Assembly: GCA_947175205.1 (NCBI GenBank)
Contig: CAMWLS010000004.1
Span: forward strand, 1-64,000
Reading direction: 5' to 3'
Origin: an uncultured Porphyromonadaceae bacterium
GTDB taxonomy: Bacteria; Bacteroidota; Bacteroidia; Bacteroidales; Muribaculaceae
Length of the DNA: 64,000 nucleotides
Part shown: piece after piece, positions 2,884 through 62,103 of the stretch
Layout: every line of letters begins with the position of its first letter
Position numbering within the stretch: the stretch's first letter is position 1
Program-made: the position numbers and the translations under genes
The notes under the pieces: model-generated
Database searches by the model: none
What the model was told of the DNA's origin: nothing
Seen by the model: only the letters and a program-made list of their open reading frames with translations

Positions 2884-3342
2884 TTACTTTATAGGAAGGG
2901 TGATTGTACCATTTACAGTGAAAGACTCATAACCTCTCATATCTTCAAATTTTGCGTTGTTGAATGAGATGGTTACATTCTTACTGTCTTTTGCTGTTAC
3001 TTTTACAGAAGTAGTGGAGGTGGGCATCCCGATAATTGCGTTATAGGTACTCCATGTAAGGGTAAAGTTTTCATCGGTGAGTGCTGTACCTTTTTCTACA
3101 TCATCCCAACTGTAAATTGAAAAATTGAGTTGATTGTCGTTGTTGTAAACAAGACAACTGTATTCACTACTGCTTACATTTGGCATAGCATTGGTGAACA
3201 CATACTTTTTGCCATCAATGGTGAGTTCCATTTTACCAGTTGAGGGGGCATTTGGTTCGTCATCGTCATCGCCACAACTGGTAAGGGCAAATGACATTGT
3301 GGCAAAGAGAGCCACAAATAAAAAGTAAAAATACTTTTTCAT
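2884..3342 (-). CDS. Lipoprotein with acidic export-type signal (SCGDDDDE)
   Basis: Start placed at internal Met: MKKYFYFLFVALFATMSFALTSCGDDDDEPN. The 22 aa upstream in the ORF track are unlikely to be coding. Confidence 0.85.
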   Translation of the reverse strand: MKKYFYFLFVALFATMSFALTSCGDDDDEPNAPSTGKMELTIDGKKYVFTNAMPNVSSSEYSCLVYNNDNQLNFSIYSWDDVEKGTALTDENFTLTWSTYNAIIGMPTSTTSVKVTAKDSKNVTISFNNAKFEDMRGYESFTVNGTITLPIK

Positions 3343-3404
3343 TTTGTTTTCCTCTGCACCTATGGCTCTACGATGCGTTTTGATTGTGAATGATTGGAAG
3401 CCAC

Positions 3405-3641
3405 ACAAGAAAGTGGAGCCAGTATTTCCACCTATCTTACTGGAGTGGCCCTAGGATAGCCAAGAATACAGATAAGTGAAACGGACTCCACTTTGACCGT
3501 ATATCATAGGGTATGATAATACAAGCCAAAGAGAGCATCTTTCACCTTCATTCTGTATTACATGGTTGAAATTTCCTAGGTTTCTCCAGTAGAATGAAGC
3601 GAAAACGCTTTCTATGTATGTCTACTCACCCTAATGGGTTT
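3405..3641 (-). ncRNA. Candidate structured 5' leader RNA (copy 1)
   Basis: Minus-strand nested helices: ACTGGAG/CTCCAGT, CCTAGGA/TCCTAGG, AATACAGA/TCTGTATT, GTGAAA/TTTCAC, apical TATCATA/TATGATA. Upstream TAACTTTG -7-like box at 3649-3656; precedes the lipoprotein start at 3342. Confidence 0.6.
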
Positions 3642-3695
3642 GCAGGTGCAAAGTTAGCAATTTTCTTTGAATGACACCCTCTATATATGGCTATT

Positions 3696-4201
3696 AACGC
3701 GAGTTCGGGATAATAATAGTACATCCCATCCCCAAGCGTACCTACACACTGACTCGGGCGGCCAAGATATGGTCGCCTTAAATTTTCAGTTTCTATCAGT
3801 TATTGCCAGAGGACAAGCTGGCCATTTGATTGGGGGATATCAAAGTTGAAGTTGACCATGGGCTTTGTTGTGAAGAAGCAATATGCTCCCATTGCGGCGA
3901 GCATATTCATCAGAAAGTTATGCACACTCCGATGGCGGGAATGTACAAGCTGCGCCACATTCTTTAGCATTTCGTTAATGGATTCTATGATACTTCTTTG
4001 CCATATCTTCTTCAAATTCTTTGCAGAAATCATCCGCAATACAGAAAATCTCAGTAACTTTACTCTCGGTAATCGTGATGAAGTATTTATTGTTTAGTTC
4101 CATTAAATTACTAATTATCAATGATATTACTAAAAGAATTGACAACTTTTTCAAGCTGCCGATTCAATTTTTTGTCGATGTTCTTATCCCGAACTCGCGT
4201 T
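3696..4201 (-). mobile_element. Internally deleted IS982-family element (MITE-like)
   Basis: Perfect 18-bp inverted repeats aacgcgagttcgggataa (3696-3713) and ttatcccgaactcgcgtt (4184-4201) flank N- and C-terminal transposase fragments. Confidence 0.75.
3800..4103 (-). pseudogene. IS982-family transposase remnant (N-term about 38 codons joined out of frame to C-term)
   Basis: N-term MELNNKYFITITESKVTEIFCIADDFCKEFEEDMAK from ATG 4103. C-term QRSIIESINEMLKNVAQLVHSRHRSVHNFLMNMLAAMGAYCFFTTKPMVNF resembles the IS982 IIESVND-LKN-xxxxHSRHRS-xxNF signature. Confidence 0.8.
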
Positions 4202-4314
4202 CTTTGCCATTGTTTTAAGGGTATGATTATTCTACTGACTAAACTACTGAAGTAATTGTATCTACCAAGCGTAGGGTACAATTTTAGGGTACAATTCGCC
4301 AAAACAGGTTAAAA

Positions 4315-4360
4315 AATCAACCACCTAACAATTAGCGATTTAGTTGTTAAGTGGCTGATT
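4315..4360 (-). terminator. Terminator downstream of guaA
   Basis: AATCA.CCAC.TAACAA / TTGTTA.GTGG.TGATT stem, followed on the minus strand by TTTTTT. Confidence 0.7.
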
Positions 4361-4406
4361 TATATGAATTAAAATAAAAATTATTCAGATAGTCAGAAGG
4401 GGTAAA

Positions 4407-5927
4407 TTATTCCCACTCTATAGTTGCCGGTGGTTTTGAAGATATGTCGTAGGTTACGCGGTTAACGCCACGGACGGTATTGATGATTTTATTGGATATA
4501 TTTGCAAGGAAATCATAAGGCAGATGTGCCCAGTCAGCGGTCATGGCGTCAGTTGAGGTTACGGCACGCAGTGCCACTGCACGTTCATAAGTGCGCTCAT
4601 CACCCATGACACCCACGCTCTGAACCGGAAGGAGGATTACGCCTGCCTGCCATACACTGTCATATAAACCGTATTCACGCAGTCCGGAGATAAAGATGTC
4701 ATCAGCATCCTGAAGTATGCGTACTTTCTCAGGAGTTATGTCACCCAGAATGCGTACCGCCAGACCGGGACCCGGGAACGGATGTCTTTTTATAAGGTGC
4801 TCCGGCATACCCAGTGAGCGGCCCACAGCACGCACCTCATCCTTGAAAAGGAGGCGGAGGGGCTCACACAGCTTCAAATTCATCTTTTCCGGCAGTCCGC
4901 CCACGTTATGGTGGCTCTTGATGGTGGTACCGGTAATGGACAGGCTTTCAATGCAGTCAGGATAAATGGTGCCCTGGGCCAGCCATTTTGCATCTTCAAT
5001 CTTGTGTGCTTCTTTATCAAAGACCTCAATGAAATCGCGCCCTATAATCTTGCGCTTCTGTTCAGGGTCAGTTACTCCCTCCAGATCCTTGAAGAATTTC
5101 TCTGAAGCGTCTACACCTATGACATTAAGCCCGAGGCCTTTATAATCATTCAGCACGTTCTGGAACTCATTCTTGCGCAGCATGCCGTGATCCACAAATA
5201 TACAAGTCAGGTTGTTACCTATGGCACGGTTAAGCAGCACGGCAGCCACGCTGGAGTCAACACCGCCACTCAGACCCAGGATTACGCGGTCATCACCCAG
5301 GGTGGCTCTGAGCTCCTTTACTGTGGATTCAATGAATGATTCAGCGCTCCAGTCACAGCGTGAACCGCAGATGTCAACAACAAAATTCCTCAGTAGTTGT
5401 GTACCGTCAGTACTGTGGTATACTTCAGGATGGAACTGTACGCCCCAGATTCTTTCATCCTGTACGCGGTATGCGGCGCAGGAGACGTCCTCTGTTGAGG
5501 CTATTATGCTGAAATTCTCCGGCAGCGCTGTGATGGTGTCACCATGACTCATCCATACCTGAGAGCCCACACTTATATTATTAAGCAGCGGGTCATCTGC
5601 CACAAATGTAAGATTTGCGCGGCCATACTCGCGTGAGTCAGCAGGTTCCACGGTGCCTCCGTTAAGGTAAGCCATCAGCTGTGCGCCGTAGCAGATGCCC
5701 AGAATGGGATATTTGCCGCGGAGTCCGTCCAGAGTTATTTTAAAAGAGCGTTCGTCGTAAACTGAAAACGGACTTCCGGAGAGGATAACACCTATTACAG
5801 AGTCATCTTCATAAGGAAACTTATTGTAAGGTACTATCTCACAGTAAGTGTTGAGCTCACGGACGCGACGACCTATCAGCTGGGTGGTCTGCGAACCGAA
5901 GTCAAGAATTATTATTTTTTCTTGCAT
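4407..5927 (-). CDS. guaA: GMP synthase (glutamine-hydrolysing)
   Basis: 506 aa; [60 protein letters not shown]-term [18 protein letters not shown]. Confidence 0.97.
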
Positions 5928-11806: not shown

Positions 11807-13363
11807 ATGTTATTACTTGATATTTCTATACTGGGTTTGACCCTCACGGCAGTCATCGTGGCCGCTGTGGCGGTGGCAGTCACCCTTGCCATTCTGAAAT
11901 CCATGGCTTCATCTAAGGCCAAGACCATCATTGCTGAAGCACAGCGCGAGGCGGAAGATCTCAAACGTGAGAAAGTGATGGAGGGCCGTGAGGAGGCTCT
12001 GAACATAACTTCAGAGGCTGAGAAACAAGCCAATCAGCGTCTGTCCAAGGTGCAGAGCTCAGAGGCACGCATAAAGCAGCGTGAACTCCAGCTTAACCAG
12101 CAGCAGAGTGAGAACCAGCGCACCCGCAATGAGCTGGACGCTACACGTCAGACTCTGGATTCCAAGGAGCGCGCGCTTGAGGCCCGCCATCAGGAAGTGG
12201 AGCTCCTTCACCGTGAGGCCCAGCACCAGCTGGAGCACATTTCCGGTTTATCTTCTGAAGAAGCTAAGGAGAAACTCATTCAGTCTCTTAAAGATGAAGC
12301 CAAGACTGCCGCGGCCTCTTACATCAATGATATAATGGATGATGCCAGACTGACAGCAAACAAGGAAGCCAAACGTATTGTGGTTCAGACCATTCAGCGC
12401 GTGGCCACAGAAACAGCCATTGAAAACTCTGTGACAGTTTTCCATATTGACAGTGATGAGATTAAGGGCCGTATCATAGGACGCGAAGGCCGCAATATCC
12501 GTGCCCTTGAAGCTGCCACCGGGATAGAAATCATTGTGGATGACACCCCTGAGGCCATAGTCCTCTCAGGCTTTGACCCCGTCAGACGCGAGGTGGCACG
12601 CCTGGCACTGCATCAACTTGTGGCCGACGGACGTATCCATCCCGCGCGCATTGAGGAAGTTGTGGCCAAAGTCCGTAAGCAGATTGAGGAAGAAATAATT
12701 GAAACCGGTAAGCGTACCGCCATAGACCTTGGTATTCACGGACTGCATCCTGAACTCATCCGTCTGGTGGGTAAGATGAAATACCGTTCAAGTTACGGAC
12801 AGAACCTCCTCCAGCATTCACGTGAAACAGCAAACCTCTGTGCTATAATGGCAACAGAACTTGGCCTAAATCCCAAGAAAGCACGTCGTGCCGGTTTGCT
12901 CCATGACATAGGCAAGGTCCCTGATGAAGAGCCGGAATTACCCCATGCCCTTCTTGGTATGAAGATGGCTGAGAAGTATAAGGAAAAACCGGATATCTGT
13001 AATGCCATTGGCGCTCACCATGATGAGATAGAGCAGAATTCTCTGCTTGCACCCATAGTACAGGTGTGTGATGCCATATCAGGAGCTCGCCCGGGAGCCC
13101 GCCGTGAGATAGTGGAAGCTTACATAAAGCGTCTTAATGACCTTGAACAGCTGGCCCTCTCATATCCCGGAGTTATTAAGACATATGCCATCCAGGCGGG
13201 TAGGGAACTGCGCGTTATCGTAGGCGCGGATAAGATTGATGATGCTGAGGCTGAAAAGTTAAGCTCAGAAATAGCACGCCGTATTCAGGATGAAATGACT
13301 TATCCCGGTCAGGTAAAGATTACCGTTATCCGCGAAACCAGATCAGTTAGCTTTGCAAAGTAA
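11807..13363 (+). CDS. rny: Ribonuclease Y
   Basis: 518 aa; N-term TM, coiled coil, [40 protein letters not shown]. Confidence 0.97.
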
Positions 13364-13365
13364 GC

Positions 13366-14724
13366 ATGTCACAGGAAGTAAATCCAGATAATAACTTCAG
13401 TTCAAGGGAACTGATTCCAAGAGACGTTGTCCCTGAAAATGAAGTTAATGCTCCCTCTGAGGAAAATACGGCAGGGGGTGACCGGAGCGCCTGTTCATGC
13501 ACATGTAAAGGACGCACACTCTCAAGAGGAAAACTCCACTGCACCAACTGGCTGGCTGATGTGCCTGGCGCCTTCGCTGATTCAGAAATGGTGGAAGTGA
13601 TGTTCAAGAATACCCGTAAGGGCTATTATAAGAACTCGCAGAACATCCCCCTTGAGATAGGTGATATGGTTGCCGTGGAGGCCGCTCCGGGTCATGATAT
13701 AGGTGAGGTTACGCTTGTGGGGAAGCTGGTAGAGCAGCGCATGCGTAGGCTTAACCCCAAGGCTCTGGCAGAGGTCAAGCGTATCTTCCGTAAGGTACGT
13801 CCCGCTGATATGGAGAAATATCACGAGGCCCGCGCCCGTGAAAATGACACCATGATTCGCGCCCGCAAGATTGCTGAGGAACTAAATCTTAACATGAAGA
13901 TTGGCGATGTTGAATATCAGGGCGACGGAAACAAGGCCATTTTCTACTACATTGCTGATGAACGCGTTGATTTCAGGCAGCTGATAAAAGTCCTTGCAGA
14001 GACCTTCAAGGTGCGCATAGAGATGAAACAGATTGGCGCACGTCAGGAAGCCGGACGCATTGGTGGTATAGGTCCTTGCGGCCGCCCTCTGTGCTGCGCC
14101 TCCTGGATGACGAACTTCGTATCTGTGGCTACCAGCGCCGCGCGTTATCAGGACCTCTCACTTAATCCGCAGAAATTGGCCGGGCAGTGTGCCAAGCTCA
14201 AGTGCTGCCTGAATTTTGAAGTGGATGCTTATATGGAAAGCGTTAAAAGGCTTCCTGAAAAAAACATACGGCTTGAAACAGCTGATAATACATATTTCCA
14301 TTTCAAAACTGATGTCTTCAAGCGTGAGATTACGTATTCCACTGATAAGAACGTAGCCGCTAACCTGGTTACTATCTCTGCTGAACGCGCCTTTGAAGTC
14401 ATTCAGCTTAATAAGGCGGGAGAGAAGCCTCTGAAGCTTGAACCGGACGGGCATGAGAAGCCTGTGGAAAAGAAAGCGTTCGGTGATATTCTTGGTCAGG
14501 ATGATCTTACACGTTTTGATAAAAAGAAACGCTCCAAGAAAAAGAAACAGCGCCAGAAAGAGGAAGCTCCCTCAGATGAAAAGAGAAAAGAAAAGCCGGC
14601 TCATAATGTAGGGAAGGACGGAGAGAAAACCAGGCAGCGAAACAGAAATCGTCATCGGAATGGCGCTTCTCCAAATGCTAATACAGCAGATAATGAACAC
14701 AGCATCAGAGAAAAAGAGCAGTAA
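13366..14724 (+). CDS. ricT: PSP1/RicT (YaaT)-type protein
   Basis: 452 aa; ARQEAGRIGGIGPCGRPLCCASWMTNF, LAGQCAKLKCCLNFE; basic C-terminal tail. Confidence 0.88.
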   Translation: MSQEVNPDNNFSSRELIPRDVVPENEVNAPSEENTAGGDRSACSCTCKGRTLSRGKLHCTNWLADVPGAFADSEMVEVMFKNTRKGYYKNSQNIPLEIGDMVAVEAAPGHDIGEVTLVGKLVEQRMRRLNPKALAEVKRIFRKVRPADMEKYHEARARENDTMIRARKIAEELNLNMKIGDVEYQGDGNKAIFYYIADERVDFRQLIKVLAETFKVRIEMKQIGARQEAGRIGGIGPCGRPLCCASWMTNFVSVATSAARYQDLSLNPQKLAGQCAKLKCCLNFEVDAYMESVKRLPEKNIRLETADNTYFHFKTDVFKREITYSTDKNVAANLVTISAERAFEVIQLNKAGEKPLKLEPDGHEKPVEKKAFGDILGQDDLTRFDKKKRSKKKKQRQKEEAPSDEKRKEKPAHNVGKDGEKTRQRNRNRHRNGASPNANTADNEHSIREKEQ

Positions 14725-61102: not shown

Positions 61103-61876
61103 TTACAGCATTTTATTATTGGTGGCCGCTACAATAGCCTCAGAAATATTACTGACATCAAGCTTTTCAAAAATCTGTTTGCGGTATTTCTTGATAGTTT
61201 CAGGGGAAAGACACATCTTGTCCGCAATCTCTGTCATGGTAAGCCCCTGAATGGACAGGGTGATAACAGTTTTCTCCCCATCAGTCAGCATGGGTACGGA
61301 GCTTTTCATCCAGCGGCGTGTAACCCTGTTATATTCATAATACTCATCTGAACCCACATGGTGGATTTCTATGTGACCGGCCTCTGTATGGTTAGAAGGA
61401 GATACCACGCATAGCGCAAGCCATATACGTCCGTCAGAAGTCAGTGCCAGCGGTGTTAGTTTGTGATGAATCAGAACCGGACGCTTATCCTTAAGTACAT
61501 GAAAATCATACTGAATATACCATTCCCTTTTATCTCCCGCAGGGATATTATTAAAGAACTCAAAGCCGGCACGGTTGAATTCCAGCAGCATTTTCTGTTC
61601 ATTCTCAGGGACATATTCCAGATAGAATCTGTAACTCAGTTCCAGCATTTTCTCCGGAGAAAGACCGCAAAGTATTAGCGAATTCCGGGATACATAAACA
61701 AACTTCTTTCTGAAATAATCTATGATATAAATACTCTGATAAGTAGAACGGGAGAAAGCATCTGCGGTAGATATATATTCCTCCACCGGGCCATAGTCCA
61801 GCTCCTCAGAAAGTTTTACTTCGTTCTCCGGAATGAAGAAGTCTTCAACCCTATTTTGTGTCATACCCTGTTTCAA
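61103..61876 (-). CDS. LuxR-type transcriptional regulator (PAS-like N-term, HTH C-term)
   Basis: 257 aa; C-term LTDGEKTVITLSIQGLTMTEIADKMCLSPETIKKYRKQIFEKLDVSNISEAI. Confidence 0.9.
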   Translation of the reverse strand: MKQGMTQNRVEDFFIPENEVKLSEELDYGPVEEYISTADAFSRSTYQSIYIIDYFRKKFVYVSRNSLILCGLSPEKMLELSYRFYLEYVPENEQKMLLEFNRAGFEFFNNIPAGDKREWYIQYDFHVLKDKRPVLIHHKLTPLALTSDGRIWLALCVVSPSNHTEAGHIEIHHVGSDEYYEYNRVTRRWMKSSVPMLTDGEKTVITLSIQGLTMTEIADKMCLSPETIKKYRKQIFEKLDVSNISEAIVAATNNKML

Positions 61877-61904
61877 AATAAAATACGTGAGCTAACTTTG
61901 CCAC

Positions 61905-62040
61905 GTCTTAACTTGAAGGGCGTAGGATCCCGATTGTACTCAGATGTGGTTGACAGCAGCCCACGCTATGCGGGTAAAGCCGCCATGCCATCTTTGAGTA
62001 CTGGTGAAAATTTCCTACGTTTTCAAGTTCAAGATTAGCA
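61905..62040 (-). ncRNA. Candidate structured 5' leader RNA (copy 2)
   Basis: Minus-strand helices AACTTGAA/TTCAAGTT, CGTAGGA/TCCTACG, GTACTCA/TGAGTAC, AGATG/CATCT. Shares the TAGGAAATTTyMACCA loop with copy 1; precedes the LuxR start at 61876. Confidence 0.6.
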
Positions 62041-62095
62041 TCACGCTTCATGATTTTCCAAAATGTCGCGGAACGGTATAGACCCTTTCCGCAAG

Positions 62096-62103
62096 CAAAG
62101 ATA
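62096..62103 (-). promoter_or_regulatory. -7 promoter box (TATCTTTG) upstream of LuxR leader
   Basis: caaagata on plus strand. Confidence 0.55.

Follow-up and report, generated by a model that had tools for sequence, protein, structure and literature searches.

A widespread structured leader RNA of Bacteroidota with mutually exclusive helices, possibly a transcription attenuator of exchangeable genes

Introduction

Among transcription-terminating riboswitches and attenuator leaders, the purine and cobalamin riboswitches are the structural analogues of the RNA reported here. The RNA resembles such leaders in its promoter-proximal position, its multi-arm junction with a kissing loop, its exclusive helices, one of them before a U tract, and the gene directly downstream. 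It differs in that its sequence and layout are unrelated to any Rfam class, its alternative stem crosses the junction helices, its cargo genes are many and unrelated, and no ligand is known. The capsule leaders of Bacteroides, which are acted on by the NusG-type UpxY antiterminators, are a further parallel: they too are long 5' leaders of surface genes with control by termination, a likeness drawn without sequence comparison. Whether our RNA might have a protein partner, as the capsule leaders have UpxY, is speculation from this analogy.

DUF805b RNA (RF02914) and DUF805 RNA (RF03081), of clan CL00115, likewise occur in Bacteroidota before start codons, and in some genomes they lie physically beside our RNA (loci L115, L120, L128, L163 and L176). 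They are separate elements of 35-68 nt, situated 3' of it, and L163 has both in tandem. At L163 (544-702) and L120 (1719-1913) the large RNA, DUF805b RNA and DUF805 RNA stand serially ahead of one gene. We scanned the window (the whole 64,000-nt stretch of DNA analysed here, from an uncultured Porphyromonadaceae bacterium) and its relatives with Rfam 15 at gathering and loose thresholds, and no family was found over the RNA itself. The same scans returned only tRNAs, DUF805/DUF805b neighbours and sub-threshold chance matches; no window copy reached the DUF805 or DUF805b gathering threshold. None of the open-access papers examined described the RNA; a prior description of the DNA motif is not excluded, subscription papers being mostly uncovered.

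Recombinase-associated acquired interbacterial defence (rAID) loci comprise a tyrosine recombinase, then short co-oriented genes of low GC, together with 'conserved intergenic sequence motifs' (PMC12247911). The layout of a recombinase followed by low-GC genes is matched by the close subfamily of our RNA. By contrast, the RNA is widespread in other gene contexts too, and no immunity function has been shown for its cargo. It could be what lies behind the rAID intergenic motifs; no comparison with a reference locus was made.

Results

The leader studied (copy 1) occupies 3343-3645 on the minus strand, core and tail together, and runs approximately from the transcription start to the start codon of a lipoprotein gene. 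A promoter -7 element of the Bacteroidota TAnnTTTG type, TAACTTTG (3649-3656), about 300 nt of leader and the lipoprotein gene follow one another in that order on this strand, as the original prediction had described for the upstream box and the lipoprotein start some 300 nt downstream. The covariance model matched 3351-3649 with 278.6 bits, and the leader end was 8 nt short of the gene. The gene (2884-3342, minus strand, ATG at 3342) encodes 152 aa and heads a low-GC run that continues at 2240-2821 and 1656-2240. Folding of copy 1 gave an energy z of -5.3, and none of 100 shuffles was as low.

From the 5' end, the RNA comprises H1, H2, the 5' strand of helix A, H3 with one side of the kissing interaction KL1 in its loop, the P4 5' strand, the P5/H6 arm, and the 5' strands of PK2 and P8. 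These are followed by the P4 3' strand, H7 with the other side of KL1, the helix A and P8 3' strands, the PK3 5' strand with the PK2 3' strand, a U-rich tract, H9 with the partner of PK3 in its loop, and the AUG. H3, the P4 arm and H7 meet at a four-way junction closed by helix A. The 7 bp between the loops of H3 and H7, KL1, are best read as a loop-loop kiss. All coordinates that follow for copy 1 are on the minus strand. Helix A pairs TACTGGAG (3584-3591) with CTCCAGTA (3438-3445), with a swap control z of 35.3 and double changes in 8/8 pairs. H3 (3568-3584) carries CCTAGGA (3574-3580), the KL1 5' strand, and H7 (TGGC..GCCA, 3446-3462) carries TCCTAGG (3450-3456), the 3' strand; KL1 had a swap z of 20.7, and H7 rests on the swap control and covariation. 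P4 joins AATACAGA (3552-3559) to TCTGTATT (3465-3472), with a swap z of 35.4, 92% of cells paired and double changes in 6/7 pairs.

The helices A (3584-3590/3439-3445), KL1 and P4 had all been proposed beforehand as a nested set; they were present at these positions and covaried. P5 (3540-3545/3476-3481), seen in the sequence as a continuation of the H6 arm, and the top of H6 (3502-3518), also proposed, were likewise present, and H6 covaried. At the 5' end the prediction fared unevenly. The inner hairpin H2, GAAAGCG-TTTT-CGCTTC (3596-3612), was conserved in homolog alignments. The stem AGTAGA...TCTACT thought to enclose it was paired in only 61% of homolog cells and is thus not conserved. H1, the 5' hairpin TGCAAACCC/GGGTGAGTA (3623-3644), was paired in 75% of homolog cells, with up to five pair types per position.

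Within the arm, the H6 5' strand CTTTGGC (3525-3531) forms an antiterminator-like hairpin (swap z 12.7; 97.6% paired) with GTCAAAG (3491-3497), which is common to PK2 according to the swap control, covariation and shared-strand tests. PK2 itself pairs two 9-mers, AAAGTGGAG (3486-3494) and CTCCACTTT (3410-3418), with a swap z of 11.3 and 92% paired, and is followed by the tract CTTGTGTG (3402-3409), weakly U-rich in copy 1 and U5-U8 in many homologs. P8, TTTCACTTATCT (3470-3481) with AGATAGGTGGAA (3426-3437), crosses helix A and P4 (swap z 16.4; 85.6% paired). PK3 joins TGGCTC (3416-3421) to the loop GAGCCA (3363-3368) of H9, a covarying hairpin GCATC..GGTGC (3356-3376) before the start codon; PK3 had a z of 12.2, 95% pairing and double changes in 5/6 pairs. 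We also considered whether DUF805b RNA was simply the 3' hairpin of this RNA and rejected it: locus L182 bears H9 and a DUF805b-type element separately, and in L163 DUF805b lies beyond the RNA.

Pairing was assessed in 30 homologs aligned by sequence alone. The 40 pairs of A, KL1, P4, H6, PK2 and P8 were 92.8% paired, compared with 80.0% after shuffling and 36-42% when slid by 1-3 columns. Double-changed cells in these pairs numbered 159 against 50.5 in shuffled data, a count that none of 500 shuffles reached. H9 and PK3 were 93.5% paired, with 22 double changes where shuffling led us to expect 4.2. Cells of KL1 were about 98% paired and included the variants CCTAGGA/TCCTAGG, CTTCGAC/GTCGAAG and CTTGGAC/GTCCAAG. 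In a swap test, which needs no column alignment and drew its windows from the covariance model alignment of 102 distinct copies, own strands outpaired swapped strands in 7/7 helices (z 11-35; 0/5000); helices A, KL1, P8, PK2 and PK3 were absent from the model that set those windows. The 9-nt long-range pairing that had been predicted, PK2, showed compensatory changes, with 0/500 shuffles and 0/5000 partner swaps. G-U pairs outnumbered A-C mismatches in the best-aligned helices, by 42 to 5 in H6 and 23 to 5 in PK2, a bias that speaks for a function of the transcribed strand as RNA. That this is a family of structured RNAs acting in cis seems to us hardly in doubt.

Homologs were sought with two covariance models, R1 (built from 30 members) and R2 (from 37 divergent members). 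In 68 of 395 Bacteroidales genomes, spread over 42 genera, R1 found at least one copy, and a single genome had as many as 13. For R2, 300 genomes were sampled across the phylum Bacteroidota; 31 of these gave a match, three of them outside the class. E-values are rough, calibration having been short; distant families nevertheless scored 80-100 bits, far above background. Leader DNA was also detected across genera of the source family, and a pattern search located the leader in Xylanibacter muris, Palleniella muris and several Muribaculaceae MAGs. Of 102 family members, 66 had TAnnTTTG where the RNA starts (shuffled mean 4.3). BLAST of copy 1 against plasmids and phages gave no match, and the core leader pattern was not found in viral contigs; one 16-mer was present in three contigs, with no further similarity to the leader there.

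The source genome itself holds about eight copies: seven found by R2 at E below 1e-3 and, as the eighth, a second copy within the window. Contig C2 carries a close relative of copy 1, 78% identical to it in DNA, before a lipoprotein gene that is nearly the same. Window copy 2 spans 61880-62103 on the minus strand and was matched by R1 at 61825-62096 (minus strand, E 6.9e-5) and by R2 (E 0.0018). The region 61905-62040 had been put forward as a second copy; it is indeed a homolog, but a divergent one, encoded on the minus strand, and the minus-strand match rules out a separate plus-strand hairpin. On that strand, copy 2 has a promoter TATCTTTG (62096-62103), helix A (62022-62028/61911-61917), H3/KL1 with the kiss CGTAGGA/TCCTACG (62013-62019/61921-61927), P4 (61995-62001/61936-61942) and P8 (61942-61949/61901-61908). 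PK2 pairs GCGTGGGC with GCTCACGT (61959-61966/61885-61892) and has a U-rich tract. H1 and H2 are also present; H9 was looked for in the copy 2 sequence and none was seen. The ORF headed by copy 2 (61103-61876, minus strand) is a LuxR-like regulator by inspection, without a domain search.

A co-directional ORF followed 117 of 121 copies, its start lying a median of 13 nt past the modelled RNA end. By a simple hydrophobicity rule, 72% of leader targets were signal-like compared with 41% of neighbouring genes (p 3.5e-6). The commonest target domains were BspA-type repeats, outer-membrane barrels, zinc ribbons, T9SS tails and fimbrillins; Pfam, NCBIfam and PADLOC searches of the downstream genes revealed no common pathway and no defence family. 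The leader heads exchangeable cargo that is mostly exported or of the envelope. Divergent copies in the source genome also precede P-loop and helix-turn-helix-like ORFs. The P-loop-like ORFs (MKASAIYGEQNAGKST... and MRKMKICIFVKGASNRGKTTT...) lie at L222 and L225, on contigs C9 and C51, and differ from the surface cargo; of these two leader copies, that on C51 is weak (E 0.025). Three distant members of the family (L206, L207 and L213) stand about 200 nt ahead of an ORF resembling a SusC/TonB receptor. A conserved leader peptide was rejected on inspection, since short reading frames differ among copies.

Leader and cargo recombine. Between copy 1 and its C2 relative the leaders were 78% and the genes about 99% identical, with three CDS mismatches. 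The window and genome G062 shared 97% leader identity ahead of different genes, and a genome of another genus (G141) had a leader 91% and a lipoprotein 46% identical to those of the window. In the close subfamily the RNA lies directly behind a tyrosine recombinase of about 195 aa and heads one to four short low-GC genes; it was at that place in 4/4 genomes with an integrase at least 85% identical. Our criterion for the rAID layout was two or more co-directional genes of less than 41% GC with a tyrosine recombinase upstream of them. The C2 copy and G062 met this criterion and G141 nearly did (GC 0.36-0.41); window copy 1, which has no adjoining recombinase, failed it. One genome (G266) holds three RNAs in a single 16.5-kb array, each ahead of a run of short genes. 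This array, L185 (contig C5, 1191-15327), is low in GC, consists of small lipoprotein and zinc-ribbon genes and is a candidate for acquired defence.

Copy 1 sits near the guaA 3' end, between an inverted-repeat element (3687-4210) and its cargo. This 524-bp element, between guaA and the leader, has 30-nt imperfect terminal inverted repeats and the core ACGCGAGTTCGGGATAA, and looks like an IS remnant or MITE. An exact match to a transposon end would have refuted the prediction; the terminal repeats (3687-3716 and 4181-4210) lie outside the RNA, and homologs without that flank occur in many genera. In G191 the RNA also follows guaA. RNA and cargo lie directly 3' of guaA in two genera (L192 of G191, 12352-14390; window, 3343-5927), which suggests an insertion hot spot. 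At the start of contig C4, the window contains 135-bp tandem repeats (1-336).

Two partners were found for the 3' strand of the P5/H6 arm, the 5' half of that arm at a z of 12.0 and the tail at a z of 14.3, and the control pairing of the arm 5' half with the tail gave a z of 0.4. In 94 of 102 copies the two best helices of the shared strand had nucleotides in common (median 7 nt). In the divergent group (n=37), PK2 reused a median of 7 nt of H6, and at least 5 nt in 37/37. H6 is GCUCACG/CGUGGGC in that group, and the tail repeats its 5' strand as GUCCCACG followed by UUUUUU; H6 and PK2 therefore exclude each other there. A run of at least four U followed PK2 in 64% of copies against 16% background. 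The layout is that of an antiterminator/terminator pair. It had been left open whether the long-range pairing was a pseudoknot or a switch. The pairing is conserved and competes with the hairpin for the same strand, so that a switch fits better than a static pseudoknot, and we hold switching by the shared strand to be probable.

Discussion

The wider expectation of a structured regulatory leader was borne out by folding and by the phylum-wide homologs: the main helices covary and nearly every copy opens a promoter-gene unit; ligand, transcription and termination are not shown. Features of an attenuator leader are met, namely a covarying structured 5' leader and mutually exclusive helices tied to a U tract. 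We lean towards transcription attenuation as the output, an inference made without transcript or termination data. In the proposed mechanism, formation of the junction and the P5/H6 arm would block P8/PK2, RNA polymerase would read through and the gene would be on; if P8/PK2 formed ahead of the U tract, transcription would stop. Once polymerase has read through, the H9 loop and the freed strand would form PK3, and this pairing beside the start codon may tune translation. The position of PK3 downstream of the U tract suggests an additional role in the full-length mRNA. A metabolite, an ion, a protein such as a NusG-type factor, temperature or transcription speed might bias the choice between states.

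Some observations sit less easily with termination. P8/PK2 closes a loop of about 50-70 nt, above the usual size for an intrinsic terminator, and the tract of copy 1, CTTTCTTGTG, is weaker than those of many homologs. Nested energy models placed the junction state about 13 kcal/mol lower in 101 of 102 copies, suggesting that the terminator state is not the equilibrium default. It must then win kinetically or with help, or both pairings partly coexist as a pseudoknot. The lack of a common pathway among the cargo genes also speaks against the attenuator reading.

The leader could instead be static or act at the level of translation, the whole fold, including P8 and a short PK2, forming a pseudoknot that either stabilises the mRNA or, by way of H9/PK3, gates the start codon, without transcription being stopped. 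PK3 and H9 covary beside the start codon, as such a leader would have it, and the overlap between P8/PK2 and A/P4 is small (median 4 nt), so that trimmed forms could coexist. However, this reading requires neither the full H6-PK2 overlap of the divergent group nor a conserved U tract, and copy 2 appears to lack H9; we think it unlikely, without setting it aside. A promoter of its own, followed some 235-245 nt later by a U-rich tract, would also suit a stand-alone small RNA that ends at the tract and acts in trans, downstream genes being reached by read-through only. This is made very improbable by the conservation of H9/PK3 beyond the tract, by the short and regular spacing to a co-directional start codon and by the presence in one genome of up to 13 different copies ahead of different genes.

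The link to a recombinase in the close subfamily and the shuffling of leaders and cargo raise another explanation, that the element works as folded DNA, an integron attC-like hairpin or attachment site for the linked enzyme. We find this barely credible: RNA structure is what revealed the phylum-wide copies, and these precede genes that have a promoter of their own and lie outside recombinase modules, G-U is favoured over A-C, and in the source genome the H9 motif is limited to the two close leader copies and never occurs elsewhere. A self-cleaving or splicing ribozyme ahead of mobile genes might be suspected from the complex fold, with its kissing loops and a P4/P8 crossing that recalls the P3/P7 crossing of group I introns. 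Yet no Rfam ribozyme or intron family matched any scanned copy, there is no splice-site logic, and helix A pairs a segment whose equivalent in group I introns is single-stranded, which leaves scant room for this idea.

We therefore favour, with only modest confidence, a cis-acting 5' leader RNA that controls the following gene or short gene run by transcription attenuation; neither ligand binding nor termination has been shown. More tentative, and to be doubted at present, is the broader proposal of a new phylum-wide class of Bacteroidota switch RNA, in which a kissing-loop four-way junction and a crossing attenuator helix would answer one common signal and serve as a portable control module for horizontally exchanged surface and interbacterial-defence genes. 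The predictions concerning the shared strand, the terminator and compensatory mutants are directly testable in cultured strains. An elaborate RNA that reaches a dozen copies per genome in a dominant gut phylum and has no counterpart in Rfam 15 would rank among the larger uncharacterised classes of cis-acting RNA. If a common signal is sensed, it would explain how acquired surface and defence genes are switched on in Bacteroidota without a shared protein regulator.
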